From an uncultured Gammaproteobacteria bacterium (GTDB lineage Bacteria; Pseudomonadota; Gammaproteobacteria; Eutrophobiales; Eutrophobiaceae), in assembly GCA_943788815.1 (NCBI GenBank), contig CALSRS010000001.1, positions 1,859,501 to 1,923,500 on the forward strand: 64,000 nt of DNA. Reading direction: 5' to 3'. The translations under genes were made by a program, and so were the position numbers. Positions 43,095 to 50,702 of the stretch are shown in pieces. Each line of letters starts with the position of its first letter. The first letter of the stretch is position 1. The notes below the pieces were generated by a model. That model did not search any database. It had not been told where the DNA came from and worked only from the letters and a program-made list of their open reading frames with translations.

Positions 43095-44642
43095 TTATGA
43101 ATTGATGTCAGAATCATCATAACTAATAACAGCCGCCATACCTGATTTCATATGGTAAAGATTATGACAGTGCAAAAACCAGTCTCTCTCATCATTTGCA
43201 TCAAATTCTATTTCAACTGTCTGCATTTGAGGAACATTAACGGTGTGTTTTAATGGGGAATAATTCCCCTGACCATTATCTACCCTAAAAAAATGACCAT
43301 GAAAGTGTATAGGGTGTTTCATCATAGTAGTATTGACGAGTTTCAACCTTATTTTTTCGCCTTTTTTGATAATGATCTTTTCACTCTCGGATAAAATCAG
43401 ATCATTCAATGACCAGACATAACGTTCCATACTACCAGTAAGCTTAAGTTCTATTTCTCTAATACTTTTATTATCTTCAGGCTCAAATGGAGTGATCGAA
43501 CGTAGCCCATAATATTCAATCAATTCACTATTAGATTGACGCATTAAATGTTGACTATGGTCCATGTTAGGATCCATTGGTTGTGTTTCCATCGCAGACA
43601 TAATCTGAGGCTTGTCATGCATACTATGGTCGACCATGTATAAGTCTGGTTTTGATAAATCCTTTACGTTAGTAATATCTCCACTACCGAAATATACTGA
43701 TGCATATCCTGTCACATCCTCAGATGTTGCTCGAAATTCAAAGCCCCCCGGTCCTTCGGGCAAAGTAACCATGACATCGTAAGTTTCTGCAATGGCAATT
43801 TGTAGTTTGTCTACCTGGTAAGGCTCTATAGGCATCCCGTCCATTTCAACAATGGTCATATTGCCGCCTGAATAATTGAGATAAAAATAACTAGATGCCG
43901 CAGCATTAATTATCCTGAGTCTTACCGTGTCTCCAGGTTTTACGTCACTCATCCATGATGACTCTTTACCATTAACTAGAAAAGCATCATAAGCAACATC
44001 TGAAATATCCATAGGCCCCATCCGAGATAGGGCACCATTTATTCGGTTTTGAATTGCAATCTGTCCATTTTTTAACACCTCCTGCCATGACTGAACGGTA
44101 TCCTTTTTAAAGGCATAGTAATGATCATTGCGTTTTAAGTTTCGCATGACATCTTTGGGATTTTCATTTGTCCAGTCGGAAAATACCAAAACTTTTTCCA
44201 GGTCATACTCATAGCGAGGTTGTTTATCTTTAAATATCAAGGCACCGTAAATTCCTCTTTGTTCCTGCAAATCAGTATGAGAGTGATACCAGTAAGTCCC
44301 TGAATGTTTTATCTCAAATTCATAGGTAAATGATTCGTTGGGTGGGATTGGAAGCGTGTTTAAATAAGGGACGCCATCTTGATCATAGGGAAGGAGAACG
44401 CCATGCCAGTGAATAGAAGTTTCCACATCCATGTGATTGTTGAAAGTTACCTGTAAAGAATCGCCAATCATTGCTTCAATGGTTGGCGCAGGAATTTGAT
44501 TGTTGATAGCCATAGCCTGAATATTTTCCCCGGTAATATTCATTTCTTGATAATCAACATCAAAACTATACTTAGCAACACTGGAAAAACAGGCTGTTGA
44601 GATAAAACATAACAGTGTAAAACATAGAATACGAATAGACAT
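43095..44642 (-). CDS. copA: Multicopper oxidase (CopA-like), exported
   Basis: 515 residues from ATG 44642, which has GGAGG 9 bases upstream; an open frame to 44696 adds 18 unlikely residues. Signal peptide MSIRILCFTLLCFISTACFS. All four copper motifs are present: SIHWHGVLLPYDQDG, GTYWYHSHTDLQEQRG, HPIHFHGHFF and FLHCHNLYHMKSGM. A Met/His-rich loop (DPNMDHSQHLM) resembles copper-binding loops of CopA/PcoA. It probably oxidises Cu(I) in the periplasm. It follows a Met/Cys-rich small protein, and its frame continues past the TAA at 43095 into a barrel-like tail. Confidence 0.88.
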   Translation of the reverse strand: MSIRILCFTLLCFISTACFSSVAKYSFDVDYQEMNITGENIQAMAINNQIPAPTIEAMIGDSLQVTFNNHMDVETSIHWHGVLLPYDQDGVPYLNTLPIPPNESFTYEFEIKHSGTYWYHSHTDLQEQRGIYGALIFKDKQPRYEYDLEKVLVFSDWTNENPKDVMRNLKRNDHYYAFKKDTVQSWQEVLKNGQIAIQNRINGALSRMGPMDISDVAYDAFLVNGKESSWMSDVKPGDTVRLRIINAAASSYFYLNYSGGNMTIVEMDGMPIEPYQVDKLQIAIAETYDVMVTLPEGPGGFEFRATSEDVTGYASVYFGSGDITNVKDLSKPDLYMVDHSMHDKPQIMSAMETQPMDPNMDHSQHLMRQSNSELIEYYGLRSITPFEPEDNKSIREIELKLTGSMERYVWSLNDLILSESEKIIIKKGEKIRLKLVNTTMMKHPIHFHGHFFRVDNGQGNYSPLKHTVNVPQMQTVEIEFDANDERDWFLHCHNLYHMKSGMAAVISYDDSDINS

Positions 44643-44715
44643 TATTAAAAACCTCCATTGCATAATAGGCATTAAGAAATACCTATAAAATTTCAAATTG
44701 AATTACTGCAATGAG

Positions 44716-45039
44716 TTAGGCTTTTGGGGGCCGGTATATCTGTCTGAGGAAATTAGAAGGGTGTAAATTGGGTTGATATACAAAAGAGTTATTAATCGAT
44801 TTAATATTGTGCTGGATATAGTTTGATGTCATGTTACTAAATGACATGCACATTGCAAAATTACAGTCACTGCAATCGAATGAGTCAACTGGTTGGACCA
44901 TGTCATGACAGTTCATATCATTCATAGATTCCATATCTGCTGACATCATTGGACAATCAAAACTCATAACAGGTGCTACAAAACTAAATGTTATTGTTAT
45001 AAGTAGCAGGGAGGCTAGTTTTTTGTAATATCTTTTCAT
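44716..45039 (-). CDS. Small Met/Cys-rich exported protein, probable copper binding (CopL-like)
   Basis: 107 residues. Signal peptide KKLASLLLITITFSFVAPVMS is followed by CPMMSADMESMNDMNCHDM and DSFDCSDCNFAMCMSFSNM, so Met, Cys and His are dense in the first 60 mature residues, a copper-chelating pattern. It is located 73 bases before the multicopper oxidase on the same strand. CopL-type leader proteins precede copAB in Xanthomonas with similar features, but I cannot show homology. Function as a periplasmic copper binder is inference. Confidence 0.65.
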   Translation of the reverse strand: MKRYYKKLASLLLITITFSFVAPVMSFDCPMMSADMESMNDMNCHDMVQPVDSFDCSDCNFAMCMSFSNMTSNYIQHNIKSINNSFVYQPNLHPSNFLRQIYRPPKA

Positions 45040-46053: not shown

Positions 46054-46365
46054 TTATCAGGCAGGAAAAATGAGATTCTCACGGTCAAGGCACGATTTTC
46101 AAAATATTATAATCCGTTCTTATAACCAAGATTAGATATGTCAGTAAATAAATCATCCATCAATGTGATGGGATGAGATGTTTAGTTGCGCAGGCTTTGT
46201 GAGTCATTGTATTTGCAGGTTTCAATATTAATAATATTTTATTAAACGATGCGGCCTGTCGAAGATCAATATTTCTAATGTAGACCAGGTCTATATTGTT
46301 TTGAGTGCTACTATTGCCTGCTATTCATTAGCTATATTAAATTATTTTAACGAGGGAGAGACTTG
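46054..46365. other. Intergenic region with an operator-like palindrome
   Basis: 312 AT-rich bases without a gene. The one clear element is TAGACC-A-GGTCTA at 46281-46293, a perfect 6+6 palindrome about 73 bases before the CMD-fold lipoprotein gene. It resembles TetR-family operators of the TAGACC...GGTCTA type. Shine-Dalgarno GAGGGAGAG lies at the end of the region. Confidence 0.5.
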
Positions 46366-47058
46366 ATGAAAGTAATGAGGATCATTGAATTAATATTGTT
46401 TAGTTTTTCTATAGTGTTGTCTGGATGCTCGTCAGTTACCACGCATGATGAAAATTTAACTGATAACACAGCTATGACGAAGGTGGAATATCTCGCTTCT
46501 TTTCCTGACGATATTAATCTTGAATCCCGAGGAAGGTTGCCTATAGTCAATCGAGCTGATCTCGATGATGAAGGTAAAGCGATATATGATAGATATACCT
46601 CTCCTGACTCCACCTCGCTTGCCGGACTTGCAGGTCCTGGAGGTCTTCGTTTGCACTCCAATGTAGATAAATCTCCCACCAGGATTGATGGCAAGGTACG
46701 CGCGCTTATTCGCCTGACGATGGCGAGAGAGTTAGATCAGGTGTTTGAATGGACGCTCTATGAACCTGTTGGATTAAGGGAAGGAATATCTCCTGAAGTA
46801 CTGGATGTGATTCGATATGACCAATCACTCACCGGTGTGCCGCTAAAGGAGGCCTCTATTGTTCGTTTGGCAAGGGAGATATTCCGAAACCATCATGTCA
46901 GTTCTGATACTTACCAGTTGTTAAAAGAACAATTTGGAAGCAAGGAACTTATGGAAATTGCATATCTGGTGGGGGATGCCATGGAGAGTTACACACTATT
47001 ATTTATGTTTGATGTGCATCTTCCATATGAAAGAAAACCATTGTTACCTGTCAAATAA
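46366..47058 (+). CDS. Lipoprotein with a carboxymuconolactone decarboxylase (AhpD-like) fold
   Basis: 230 residues from ATG 46366. Lipobox IVLSGC places it in the envelope. The body has the CMD helices: GKVRALIRLTMARELDQVFEWTLYE and the following helices to VGDAMESYTLLFMFDVHLPY. In active family members this helix reads E-W-x-x-H and often carries a CxxC; here the His is Tyr and no CxxC is present, so redox or decarboxylase chemistry is doubtful. A TTG at 46363 is an alternative start. It faces the DsrE-like gene. Confidence 0.75.
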   Translation: MKVMRIIELILFSFSIVLSGCSSVTTHDENLTDNTAMTKVEYLASFPDDINLESRGRLPIVNRADLDDEGKAIYDRYTSPDSTSLAGLAGPGGLRLHSNVDKSPTRIDGKVRALIRLTMARELDQVFEWTLYEPVGLREGISPEVLDVIRYDQSLTGVPLKEASIVRLAREIFRNHHVSSDTYQLLKEQFGSKELMEIAYLVGDAMESYTLLFMFDVHLPYERKPLLPVK

Positions 47059-47092
47059 CTAATAAAAAACACAATACCAATAAGATTCGTTT

Positions 47093-47141
47093 AGGGTCAG
47101 AGTAAAATATATTCTATTAATTAAATTTTTACTCTGACCCT
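47093..47141. terminator. Bidirectional terminator-like inverted repeat
   Basis: AGGGTCAGAGTAAAA (47093-47107) and its exact complement TTTTACTCTGACCCT (47127-47141) around a 19-base AT-rich loop, between two converging genes. GGGTCAGAGTAAAA repeats are scattered in many proteobacterial genomes, so it may be a REP-like unit acting as a terminator. Confidence 0.7.
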
Positions 47142-47146
47142 GAAGT

Positions 47147-47818
47147 TTATTCTGCGTATAACAGGCTATAGCCATATTCCTGTGATCGAGTCGCGGCAAG
47201 AACGCCAGCTGCGACAAAGTGACCATTTGGAACCGCCCCATCAACAAGCAGGGCAAAAGCTTCATCGATAGACATTCCAGTTCCTTTGGAAATATTTATA
47301 GCTGCCCTACGGCTCGCCCTTTGACAGATGGCGAAGTGTACGCCTAAATCCAATAGTTTCGGAATGGTGTTTGATCCACTATAGGAGTTGGAGGCATACA
47401 TGGGATTGCTTGACGGTGCTGAGACTGAAGGGTCTCGATTAATAAACTCGCCATACTTTTCCCAAAGTGCATTACCAAAACCGTAAGGAGTAGAAGCATG
47501 ACGGAAACATACTACCATTGCATAATCTGACGCCTTTCCATCGTATTCTTCCATATGGGAAACGATAATATTATTAGCAAATCGTATTGCGCTTCCTCCC
47601 CCTGCTACAGTGGAAGAGTCAACAAAGACGCGATGCTGTCCCTGTAGCTCGTTAAACCATGAATCCTTACTATGACGGGCAGGTTGAAATCCACTAGAGC
47701 TTTGCTGAGCCTGTGCTGATCCTGACCCGGTGGCAGCGGCGATGCCGGCAACCGTTGCAACACTCATATTGGTTAGTAAGGTACGGCGTCCTACAACTTT
47801 CTCTTCATTGTCTTCCAT
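47147..47818 (-). CDS. Tat-exported DsrE-like protein, unknown function
   Basis: 223 residues. A twin-arginine signal is clear (EKVVGRRTLLTNMSVATVAG up to SAQAQ). The mature part resembles DsrE/DsrF-type folds: an early strand and helix FANNIIVSHMEEYDGKASDY, MVVCFRHASTPYGFGNALWE, then KLLDLGVHFAICQRASRRAA. Cys residues in VVCFRH and AICQRA could be reactive, as in DsrE-family sulfur carriers, though those are usually cytosolic. It lies 68 bases downstream of a SulP gene and a TsdA-like cytochrome gene, so a sulfur role is plausible. Confidence 0.65.
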   Translation of the reverse strand: MEDNEEKVVGRRTLLTNMSVATVAGIAAATGSGSAQAQQSSSGFQPARHSKDSWFNELQGQHRVFVDSSTVAGGGSAIRFANNIIVSHMEEYDGKASDYAMVVCFRHASTPYGFGNALWEKYGEFINRDPSVSAPSSNPMYASNSYSGSNTIPKLLDLGVHFAICQRASRRAAINISKGTGMSIDEAFALLVDGAVPNGHFVAAGVLAATRSQEYGYSLLYAE

Positions 47819-47886
47819 TGTGTTCTCCCGCTATAGTATTAGGTGTGAATGTGGATTTTTATCCAGGGTTAGTTCTGATTATATGA

Positions 47887-49467
47887 CTATTCTACTGTGA
47901 GTGAAACGAGTTCAATTTCACTGCTCCCACCCAGTTTTTTTAGAAAATTACGCTGTTTTTCATTCATGAGAAGTGTCAATTTTCCGCCATTGGCAGCCAT
48001 GTTTCTGGATTCGCGACCAAAAAAATCTATTGCTGACTGATCGAGATGAGTTGTGTATTGAAGGTCAACAGTGAGTTGTTCCTTAACATGGTTATGAAAT
48101 ATTTCTGTCAGTTGAGACACCGAGGCATAGAACAAAGCACCTTTAACCTTAAGCAGGATGCCTGAATCTGTGTTTTCCATCTTTAACTCAAGCTGACTAA
48201 TTCGAAACATGAATACGCTAATAGACAAAAATACGGCAACCGCTACACCTGCAGTAAGACCAAAAAAGATAATACTGATAAAAGTAGCGAGGTAAATAAC
48301 CAGTTCAGAGCGTACTTGAGCGTAGTGTTTAATATCGCTCCACTTGATCATGTCTGCGCCCACAATAAATAAGGTACCTGCCATTGCCGCCATGGGCATA
48401 TAGGTCAATATTGGCCCCAGAAAAGTAACAAGCATGAGTACAAAACCTGCTGTGAGGATCCCGGATAAAGGCGTAGTGGAACCAAGACTCCGGTTTGCCC
48501 TGGTGCGATTAAAACTTCCAGAGCCAACAAACCCGGAAAAGAAAGGTGCGAGAAAATTAGAAACTCCCTGAGCATAAACTTCTTTATCCAGGTTGATGTC
48601 CTGATTTGTCTCCATTTTGAGTTCTCTCACAATCACCAATGATTGTGCAAGACCTATGAATGCAATTGTTATGGCATAAGGAATCAGTGTGACACTTGTT
48701 ATTAGATACTCGATATTTATTGTGGGAATGTGAAAGGGCATCCATTGTAAGGGCATGCGCCCAAGGTATTCCAACTCGGTGACTGGCTGTGGCCAGATAA
48801 ACGCTACGAGCATGCCACACAAATAACCTGTGGTTACAGCAATGATAAGGAAATAGCGTGGGGAAAAACGCCGACCTAAATAGCCACCAGTTATGGTTGC
48901 GATTCCAATAGCAAAACTATAGGGGTTCACGAGATCTATGGCATCACTAATAATGATATAAAGCTTTTCATAAAAGAACGTAGTGTTAAAAGTAGACAGA
49001 TCGAGAATACTGTCTAGCGAAGCCATCATAATCAAAAAACCCGCACCAGCAGAGATGCCCGAAATGGCTCCCGGGGAAAGATATTGAAAAATACGTGCGC
49101 CCCGTAATACCCAAAATAACAACTGAACTATCCCTACCATCATACAAAGCAGGAAAACAAAATCGATATACACCGGGCTTCCACGCCCTGCCAAAGGTAG
49201 GACGGCTGTCCCTATGAGTATAGCAACAGCTGTATTGGGTCCACTCATCATGGAAGAGGTGCCCAGTAAACTTGAAAACAGGGTGACGAAGATTGCGCAA
49301 TACAAACCGTATTCAGGCTGTAGTCCTGCAAGGTAGGCATAGGTGATACCCTGTGGGATGACAAGTATGGCGCCTACAAAACCTGCGAATGCTTCGGTTC
49401 GCCAATTGTGTAACTTTTCTATCCAGGCAAATGAAGGTGTCGCTTCTTTGAGAAGTGTTCCGATCAA
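47887..49467 (-). CDS. SulP-family anion permease with STAS domain
   Basis: 526 residues with about a dozen hydrophobic segments. The SulP signature is in the N-terminal part (ILVIPQGITYAYLAGLQPEY, FSSLLGTSSMMSGPNTAVAI) and the family motif GFVGSGSFNRTRANRSLGST in the middle. The C-terminal 95 residues form a STAS domain ending in the TTHLDQSAIDFFGRESR region. SulP proteins import sulfate, bicarbonate or other anions. It overlaps the di-haem cytochrome gene by 4 bases, which favours a sulfur oxyanion as substrate. Confidence 0.9.
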   Translation of the reverse strand: MIGTLLKEATPSFAWIEKLHNWRTEAFAGFVGAILVIPQGITYAYLAGLQPEYGLYCAIFVTLFSSLLGTSSMMSGPNTAVAILIGTAVLPLAGRGSPVYIDFVFLLCMMVGIVQLLFWVLRGARIFQYLSPGAISGISAGAGFLIMMASLDSILDLSTFNTTFFYEKLYIIISDAIDLVNPYSFAIGIATITGGYLGRRFSPRYFLIIAVTTGYLCGMLVAFIWPQPVTELEYLGRMPLQWMPFHIPTINIEYLITSVTLIPYAITIAFIGLAQSLVIVRELKMETNQDINLDKEVYAQGVSNFLAPFFSGFVGSGSFNRTRANRSLGSTTPLSGILTAGFVLMLVTFLGPILTYMPMAAMAGTLFIVGADMIKWSDIKHYAQVRSELVIYLATFISIIFFGLTAGVAVAVFLSISVFMFRISQLELKMENTDSGILLKVKGALFYASVSQLTEIFHNHVKEQLTVDLQYTTHLDQSAIDFFGRESRNMAANGGKLTLLMNEKQRNFLKKLGGSSEIELVSLTVE

Positions 49468-50252
49468 TCGAATAGATGTTCCAGTAGTTTGAGGAATTTG
49501 CTATCTCTAGGATCTGAAGGGCGAATTTGTAAATTCAGGTATGCCGACACGTCGAGAGCTTGTTGGTGGCTAAGTGATTTACCGTTACCTAAAGGCATAT
49601 TTGCCCATATGAAACCGGCGGCTTTATGAATATCATTCATTCCTGCGCCTTTATTGTAGGAATCAAGGCCCCATACGGGAGGCATTTCAACTACGCCTTC
49701 ACCTTGCTCTCCATGACAACTCGAACAGCGTTCCAGGTAAATTGATCGGCCATTGGCAGGGTTTGGATCGTAACCAGTGTCTGGCAGGGTAGGTACACCG
49801 CGTCCATCTGGTTCCTCTCCCATTACTTGTCCCTGAGATAGATACGTTACATAGGCTGCGATCGCTAGTACTTCCGGGGCATCCTCGGGCGGCATGATTC
49901 CATCCATGCTGTATAGAAAACATTCTCGGATTCGTAGACCAATGCCGTTACGTTTACCATTTTTAGATCGCCACTTGGGATACATTCCTGCTACGTTTAG
50001 TGGTATTGCGTCTTTTTTCGTACCTGCCTGTAAATGGCAATTGTTGCAATTAAGACTATTGCCAACATAACGGCTGGCGATATTTTGTGTATCTGTGACT
50101 ATCTTGTAGCCATAAACCACATTGGAGTAATAATCATCCAGAAAAGGTTCATTAAGTAGCTGCTCGATACTGGGTTGGTCCTGCTGAGCATGGCACAATG
50201 ATATCGGTACTACTAGCAGAGAACAGTAACAGAGGATATGGTTAATTTTCAT
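49464..50252 (-). CDS. Di-haem cytochrome c, TsdA-like (thiosulfate dehydrogenase type)
   Basis: 262 residues with a signal peptide (to CHA, about residue 22) and two haem sites, CNNCH at 69-73 and CSSCH at 176-180. Between them, RIRECFLYSMDG holds Cys111 in the place of the cysteine axial ligand of TsdA, where the family motif is R-I-x-x-C-x-x-R-S-M-N-G. TsdA joins two thiosulfates to tetrathionate in the periplasm; tetrathionate reduction is also possible. It leads the unit with SulP and the DsrE-like gene. Homology to SoxA-like cytochromes cannot be excluded. Confidence 0.8.
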   Translation of the reverse strand: MKINHILCYCSLLVVPISLCHAQQDQPSIEQLLNEPFLDDYYSNVVYGYKIVTDTQNIASRYVGNSLNCNNCHLQAGTKKDAIPLNVAGMYPKWRSKNGKRNGIGLRIRECFLYSMDGIMPPEDAPEVLAIAAYVTYLSQGQVMGEEPDGRGVPTLPDTGYDPNPANGRSIYLERCSSCHGEQGEGVVEMPPVWGLDSYNKGAGMNDIHKAAGFIWANMPLGNGKSLSHQQALDVSAYLNLQIRPSDPRDSKFLKLLEHLFD

Positions 50253-50432
50253 TGTTTGAGCTTTTAACGCAATGGTTAAAAGTCATTGTATGCAAGTTAA
50301 GAAAATGATGGAAGGATAAAAAGTGAAACAGCTGAGCAACTAATATTATTGATAGTAGATATCAATGTAAAATTACACTTAACTGTTACATCTGGTCGTT
50401 TAATCGAGAATTATAGTGAGGAGTGAAGCGGT

Positions 50433-50702
50433 CTATCTACGTTTTTTAGTAACGCGCCTTGCCCGAGGGGTCTCAAATTTAACCTTGATAAAATTTCCAC
50501 CAACCGAAGCACCGTTTAGCCCGCTAATTGCAGCCCTGGCTTCATGACCTTCCATCTCAACAAAACCGAAACCCTTACATTTTCCAGTAAAGATATCTGT
50601 TGCAATCTGAATTGACCTTACAGTTCCATATTCTGAGAATAGCTCACGGACTTCATTCTCAGTAGTGTCTTTTGACAGGCTTCCTATAAAAATCTTTTTC
50701 AA
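50433..50702 (-). CDS. RRM-type RNA-binding protein
   Basis: 89 residues with one RNA recognition motif: RNP2 KKIFIGSLSKDTTENEVREL and RNP1 GKCKGFGFVEMEGHEA, then the basic tail TPRARRVTKKRR. Bacterial RRM proteins of this size (cyanobacterial Rbp and related) are often cold-induced. It lies 89 bases downstream of a cold-shock gene on the same strand, with a hairpin (50746-50773) between, so the pair may share cold induction. Confidence 0.92.
   Translation of the reverse strand: MKKIFIGSLSKDTTENEVRELFSEYGTVRSIQIATDIFTGKCKGFGFVEMEGHEARAAISGLNGASVGGNFIKVKFETPRARRVTKKRR

Follow-up and report, generated by a model that had tools for sequence, protein, structure and literature searches.

A conserved TsdA–SulP gene pair with a Tat-signal protein of predicted DsrE fold in an uncultured gammaproteobacterium

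Introduction

The 64,000-nucleotide stretch of contig CALSRS010000001.1 analysed here (assembly GCA_943788815.1, an uncultured gammaproteobacterium), which we refer to as the window, contains three adjoining minus-strand genes that appear to form one sulfur-handling unit. They encode a di-haem cytochrome of the thiosulfate dehydrogenase (TsdA) family, a SulP-family permease, and a protein with a twin-arginine translocation (Tat) signal and a predicted DsrE fold. We give about even weight, for and against, to the proposal that this is a thiosulfate/tetrathionate unit working across the periplasm and inner membrane, made up of TsdA, a DsrE-fold carrier and SulP for anion transport. DsrE-type sulfur carriers usually act inside the cell, and we know of no settled account of how sulfur is handed on after TsdA, or of the route by which TsdA-containing bacteria pass sulfur anions through the membrane.

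Results

A first-pass annotation of the window had described a TsdA-like cytochrome with the cysteine axial-ligand motif of thiosulfate dehydrogenase, a SulP gene overlapping the cytochrome gene by 4 bases, and a third protein with a twin-arginine signal. The three open reading frames lie where it had placed them, on the minus strand (Table 1), and each of these features was borne out. The overlap reads TTGA (49464-49467), the TTG start of SulP being set on the TGA stop of the cytochrome gene, and 68 bases separate SulP from the Tat-protein gene, whose ATG is preceded by GGGAGA.

Table 1. Features of the sulfur-handling locus in the window
Feature	Coordinates	Strand	Description
tsdA-type cytochrome gene	49464..50252	-	TsdA-family di-haem c-type cytochrome, 262 amino acids
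SulP permease gene	47887..49467	-	SulP-family anion permease with STAS domain, 526 amino acids
Tat-signal protein gene	47147..47818	-	predicted DsrE fold, 223 amino acids
Inverted repeat	47090..47144	none	18-nucleotide arms, 94% complementary, 19-nucleotide spacing; directly beyond the end of the Tat gene
Promoter-like match	50410..50439	-	TAGATA-18-TATAAT, matched to the consensus only; lies upstream of the cytochrome gene

The cytochrome scored over the cut-offs of both Pfam SoxA-TsdA_cyt-c and Cytochrom_C, and against PDB sequences it matched TsdA entries (E ~1e-36) and TsdBA (5lo9; E 3e-38). Behind an N-terminal signal peptide, judged by eye, it has the two CxxCH sites, the cysteine and methionine axial ligands and the conserved arginine of the family: haem 1 is assigned to C69xxCH73 with axial C111, in the motif R107-I-R-E-C111, and haem 2 to C176xxCH180 with axial M219. 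C111 aligned to the axial cysteine of solved TsdA chains; a published account of TsdA names Cys123 as the haem 1 axial cysteine and describes the roles of the ligands and the arginine (PMC4423706). From these conserved active-site residues we infer that the cytochrome would interconvert thiosulfate and tetrathionate via its cysteine-ligated haem. TsdA-family enzymes are able to run in either direction, and tetrathionate is the product of TsdA.

A TsdA profile search of 352 genomes of the class (at least 90% complete, evenly drawn; E ≤ 1e-30) gave 47 matches, spread over 43 genomes. One match was the window's own, and the other 46 loci were examined. In 16 of the 46, a SulP gene lay within 200 bases downstream on the same strand; this count includes L056, which is not in the clade described below, and leaves out L064, in which a more distant SulP lies 1.8 kb downstream. 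At one locus (L048, 7857-8688), TsdA is split across two reading frames in that assembly.

When 56 TsdA rows were placed in a tree, the 24 SulP-linked ones, the window's among them, formed one clade (support 98/94), with both Allochromatium vinosum TsdA, on a long branch, and TsdBA outside it. This tree omits L106, L107 and L108, three rows with long branches, and in a tree that includes them the clade support was 95; the TsdA of G007 (L067) and the unseen TsdA of L076 are in neither tree. L056 was the sole SulP-neighboured TsdA outside the clade, and its SulP also fell outside the linked SulPs. The clade spans eleven family codes, ten plus the window's own, rows from the contig scan described below carrying no code, and in one genome (G085) a linked TsdA (L061) occurs together with an unlinked one (L084). 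R107, C111 and M219 were kept in all 24 linked rows, and the haem 1 CxxCH in 23, the remaining row being a fragment. The residue before the axial cysteine was E, Q, D or S in 24/24 linked TsdAs, versus glycine in 31 of the 33 others; in the window it is E110 (49923-49925). A. vinosum TsdA, although outside the clade, also carries aspartate at this position.

Three subclades were apparent among the linked TsdAs. The first (5 rows) is found in loci ordered TsdB-like, TsdA, SulP, DsrE of the general secretory (Sec) type and SoxB-like; the second (8 rows) is accompanied by a long SulP, in L049 together with a DsrE; and the third (11 rows) by a short SulP, joined in 9 cases by the Tat protein. The same three groups were recovered in the SulP tree, which split the 25 linked SulPs from four others with support of 99, on a short search in which the SulPs had been found with linked-SulP queries and distant SulPs are under-sampled. 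A second SulP of the window genome was placed outside the linked group.

The window permease has the two domains of its family over their curated cut-offs, Sulfate_transp (2e-64; 218 bits versus 23.2) and STAS (25 bits versus 22.6), and scored 224 bits against NCBIfam sulP (TIGR00815), under the cut-off of 380. The long SulPs beside TsdA (L049-L055 and L061) measure about 930-950 amino acids, and cyclic-nucleotide-binding and rhodanese domains were found behind STAS in 6/6 of those tested (L049-L052, L054 and L061).

The third protein has the sequence features of a Tat substrate, with RR at residues 11-12, a hydrophobic stretch and AQA at 35-37, and TatC is present in the window genome (1.5e-67). 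The Tat-target model TIGR02811 matched its first 43 residues with 28 bits (E 1.8e-6), short of the cut-off of 48. The RR pair, C104 and C165 were invariant in 16/16 aligned members of the family.

Using 15 aligned sequences, AlphaFold2 gave a model of this protein with a predicted local distance difference test score (pLDDT) of 81.6, exceeding 90 over most of the mature part; a first model from five sequences (pLDDT 48) was too poor and was set aside for it. From residue 62 the modelled order is strand-helix-strand-helix-helix-helix-strand-helix-helix-strand-helix-strand. The six best structural matches were DsrE-type structures (8uja, Z 13.4; 2pd2, 13.3; 1l1s, 12.6; 1jx7, 10.9; 3mc3, 9.4; 3pnx, 9.2), with Z dropping to 5.1 at the seventh, these scores coming from a re-alignment restricted to Foldseek's own match list. 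Among the six, 8uja, 3mc3 and 3pnx are annotated as DsrE-like, 1l1s and 2pd2 match a PF02635 protein in sequence (4e-14 and 8e-8, respectively), and 1jx7 (YchN) we take to be a member of the DsrE-type family. The predicted fold spans residues about 60-223, which the window protein has in common with 2pd2, 1l1s, 1jx7, 3mc3 and 3pnx; relative to these structures it adds the Tat signal, and its strands 2 and 3 lie further apart in the sequence (residues 106-160).

An hhalign comparison of the Tat family with eight DsrE-type proteins encoded near TsdA (A6) gave 80.5% with E 1.3e-5, whereas comparison with one single Sec-type DsrE was not significant (0.7%). In the former, C165 aligned with the sole invariant cysteine of the A6 proteins. 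C165 ends strand 3 (residues 161-165; GVHFAICQRASRR), presumably the same place as that of the active cysteine of DsrE and TusD. The second invariant cysteine of the family, C104, has no counterpart in A6. Together, the structural re-alignment and hhalign, on which the fold assignment rests, support a DsrE fold for the modelled Tat protein. Of the DsrE-like pattern claimed in the first-pass annotation, the fold thus stood, the structure prediction called for there having given a confident model that matched DsrE-type structures best (Z 9.2-13.4) and no non-DsrE outcome having been seen; a Pfam DsrE match was not obtained, and the sequence-only tests for DsrE membership were negative. PDB sequence matches of the protein (antibody and triosephosphate isomerase chains) and of its family profile (antibody chains and one signal-peptide match) were judged to be chance. 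One PF02635 gene is present elsewhere in the window genome.

The Tat protein and TsdA were both found in the same five of 53 genomes of the order, which are the five genomes of the window's genus in that set, and the trio is contiguous in all five, the G007 cytochrome being cut by a contig end. In L006 the window's gene at 46363-47058 and two of its small genes have relatives in the flanks, an antiporter gene lying in between; L007 and L008 have several flanking genes in common; and in L009 neither the window-type nor the L007/L008-type flanking genes were seen around the trio. Genome contigs scanned with profile A1 yielded 15 loci from 14 assemblies. Four of these assemblies are genus genomes again, and the window brings the number of assemblies to 15; the same scan with a single Tat sequence found none. 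Since short exact patterns were required, the scan undercounts. The trio was present in 11 of these 15 assemblies (the window, L067, L068, L069, L070, L072, L073, L075, L076, L077 and L081), three of the 11 loci touching contig ends (L067 and L073 are without the TsdA start, and L076 is cut inside SulP with TsdA unseen); L079, at a contig edge in the assembly of L073, was not counted separately. The 4-base TsdA/SulP overlap recurred in all ten trio loci in which the junction was read (the window, L067-L070, L072, L073, L075, L077 and L081), and in L073, L077 and L081 SulP and the Tat gene overlap by 4 bases as well. Because the trio is kept in five genus genomes whose flanks are only partly shared, and recurs in further genomes, it is not a chance neighbourhood, and the neighbourhood search suggested with the first-pass annotation came out in its favour.

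The Tat DsrE-fold family looks rare. Outside the window genome, no member was found in 370 genomes of the class (single sequence), 397 of the phylum (A1) or 369 of the class (A4), samples that were evenly drawn from larger groups and overlap one another; profile A4 found none at any of the 46 further TsdA loci, and the plasmids searched gave no match. Two weak matches from the phylum were dismissed, L016 for three internal stops and L017 for covering the signal region only. The Tat DsrE-like gene is present as two tandem copies in L071 (8001-9445), and in L074 (8001-9968) it adjoins a gene for an MbnH-family di-haem enzyme on the opposite strand.

Exported DsrE proteins were also encountered in the wider set of TsdA loci. 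In 6 of the 16 TsdA-SulP loci (L049, L057, L063, L066, L085 and L086), a DsrE-family gene comes next, and all six products are over the PF02635 cut-off and have a Sec-type signal peptide, judged by eye. In every one of these but L049, a SoxB-like hydrolase gene then follows, and a di-haem gene, which we take to be TsdB-like, lies upstream of TsdA. These five units run in one direction from the TsdB-like to the SoxB-like gene (for example, L057 2300-7922 and L063 4709-10386) and fall under three family codes. The two SoxB-like proteins tested against the SoxB model TIGR04486 fell far short of its 550-bit cut-off, at 195 and 197 bits, so that we regard these genes as relatives rather than proven SoxB. 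Since Sec-type DsrE proteins follow TsdA-SulP in other families, the trio is not the only place where an exported DsrE lies next to TsdA; the first-pass annotation had proposed this arrangement as a new layout, and while the trio proved real and conserved, the layout is wider than the trio. Separately, in L104 (4885-6488) TsdA is flanked on one side by an exported DsrE-like gene, 114 bases away on the opposite strand, and on the other by a SoxB-like gene. The L104 DsrE-like protein had no Pfam match at E ≤ 0.01, and its TsdA groups with that of A. vinosum.

These loci bear on the direction in which the unit runs. TsdA might work reductively, turning tetrathionate into thiosulfate in the periplasm, with SulP importing thiosulfate as a sulfur source and the DsrE-fold protein helping to free proteins or small thiols of thiosulfonate. 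The bidirectionality of the enzyme family would allow this, and both the neighbouring SulP and the rhodanese domain on related SulPs would suit import of a sulfane-sulfur compound to the cytosol. The SoxB-like gene that follows in five related units is better suited to oxidation, however, and we consider the reductive alternative unlikely.

Other features near the trio were also recorded. The inverted repeat (Table 1) has exact 15-base cores and lies between convergent genes; no second copy of its core was found in the window when up to 2 mismatches were allowed, and it is possibly a two-way terminator or a repeat element. Promoter-like matches of the kind found upstream of the cytochrome gene number 15 in the region versus 9.5 (standard deviation 3.7) in shuffles. 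The gene at 46363-47058, a relative of which lies near the trio in L006/L067, encodes a lipoprotein-like product without a Pfam match. At 43095-45039 the window encodes a multicopper oxidase, with a small cysteine- and methionine-rich, signal-peptide-like product coded just upstream; our guess is that these genes handle copper.

Discussion

TsdA, SulP and DsrE each belong to an already known family. In the open literature searched, we found no description of a TsdA-SulP-DsrE unit or of an exported DsrE beside TsdA, nor of the SulP-linked TsdA clade or a Tat-signal DsrE-fold family. The window enzyme resembles TsdA of A. vinosum (4wq7) and TsdBA (5lo9) in its two haem c domains, its cysteine and methionine ligands and its conserved arginine, but belongs to the separate SulP-linked clade. 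DsrE3A of Metallosphaera cuprina, like the window protein, is of DsrE type and has two conserved cysteines, which in DsrE3A react with tetrathionate, each binding a thiosulfate group from it; it is, however, cytosolic and encoded with TusA beside an Hdr-like complex, whereas the window protein carries a Tat signal, and its gene stands with those for TsdA and SulP (PMC4175335).

Two further systems are close in part. In Erythrobacter flavus, TsdA acts first and a SoxB-family enzyme then acts on its product, a pathway that resembles the five sister units with SoxB-like genes; the main text of that account does not contain the term DsrE, and its available part names no SulP (PMC7608252). This TsdA-SoxB zero-valent sulfur pathway differs from the window, whose genome gave no SoxB match (TIGR04486, E ≤ 1e-5). 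The YTD cluster of disproportionating bacteria (YeeE, TusA and a DsrE-like protein), as far as its available description goes, likewise encodes a sulfur-anion permease with a DsrE-like protein, but the permease is of another family, and neither a TsdA nor export of the DsrE-like protein is named for it (PMC13047784). The neighbours of the window's Tat gene are TsdA and SulP, not YeeE and TusA.

The sulfur-handling role of the Tat protein, its export and the substrate of SulP are our reading of the sequences, and we propose the following course. The SulP-linked TsdA would turn thiosulfate to tetrathionate in the periplasm, the oxidative direction being the most likely. The Tat-exported DsrE-fold protein would meet this product in the same compartment and bind its thiosulfonate or sulfane group at C104, C165 or both. 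The resulting anion, be it thiosulfate, sulfite or sulfate, would then cross the inner membrane through SulP. The carrier step is proposed because the cysteines of DsrE3A take thiosulfate from tetrathionate, TsdA makes tetrathionate, and a two-cysteine DsrE-fold protein is here signalled to the compartment of TsdA; uptake of the group would thus be analogous to that by cytosolic DsrE3A.

Several observations weigh against this reading. The window's TsdA subclade sits on a long stem (1.48), and its activity may for that reason have shifted. The joining order of the three groups differs between the trees, the 8-row group joining the 11-row group in the TsdA tree (99/88) and the 5-row group in the SulP tree (89), so that the TsdA-SulP pairing holds within each group while the trees leave the older history of the pair unsettled. 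Models of bicarbonate and dicarboxylate transporters also match the window SulP, below their cut-offs, and SulP proteins may carry other anions. For the Tat protein, Foldseek alone gave no PDB match at E ≤ 0.001, the best being 8uja at 0.013, and no Pfam family was matched at E ≤ 1, which is why we call it DsrE-fold or DsrE-like and not a PF02635 member. In four of the 15 assemblies (L071, L074, L078 and L080) there is no adjacent TsdA-SulP at the Tat gene; the L074 genome has a TsdA-family gene elsewhere, and the L071 genome has no TsdA at E ≤ 1e-15. To these is added the absence of a SoxB match from the window genome.

Another possibility is that the DsrE-fold protein is co-inherited with its neighbours but has no sulfur role, acting instead in the redox chemistry or the assembly of c-type cytochromes. 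The MbnH-family di-haem gene beside the Tat gene in L074 would fit such a factor, as would the further di-haem cytochrome gene that follows the Tat gene in L068 (= L009). Since C165 is nevertheless invariant and aligned to the invariant cysteine of the DsrE proteins near TsdA, and a more distant TsdA-family gene still lies within 5 kb of the Tat gene in two of the four loci (L078 and L080), we think this improbable.

The missing SoxB match could also mean that the unit serves protection and not energy, scavenging thiosulfate, tetrathionate or polysulfide that would block envelope thiols, with SulP clearing the anion formed. The flanking genes in the genus, judged from their translations, look heterotroph-like and agree with such a role. 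The di-haem genes upstream of TsdA and the SoxB-like genes downstream in the sister subclade suggest use of the electrons instead, and make protection alone quite unlikely.

The proposed oxidative unit could be extended further. In this tentative and, in our judgement, doubtful extension, the SulP-coupled TsdA clade would use an exported DsrE as a periplasmic thiosulfonate or sulfane carrier replacing SoxYZ, maybe recruited repeatedly given its Tat and Sec types, and the SoxB-like enzyme of one subclade would cut sulfate from the loaded DsrE, amounting to a SoxYZ-free, Sox-like cycle. The conserved TsdA-SulP pair and the exported DsrE-type protein supply candidates for the carrier and the permease of TsdA-dependent sulfur metabolism. 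If the proposal is true, DsrE proteins would extend from a cytosolic relay into the periplasm.

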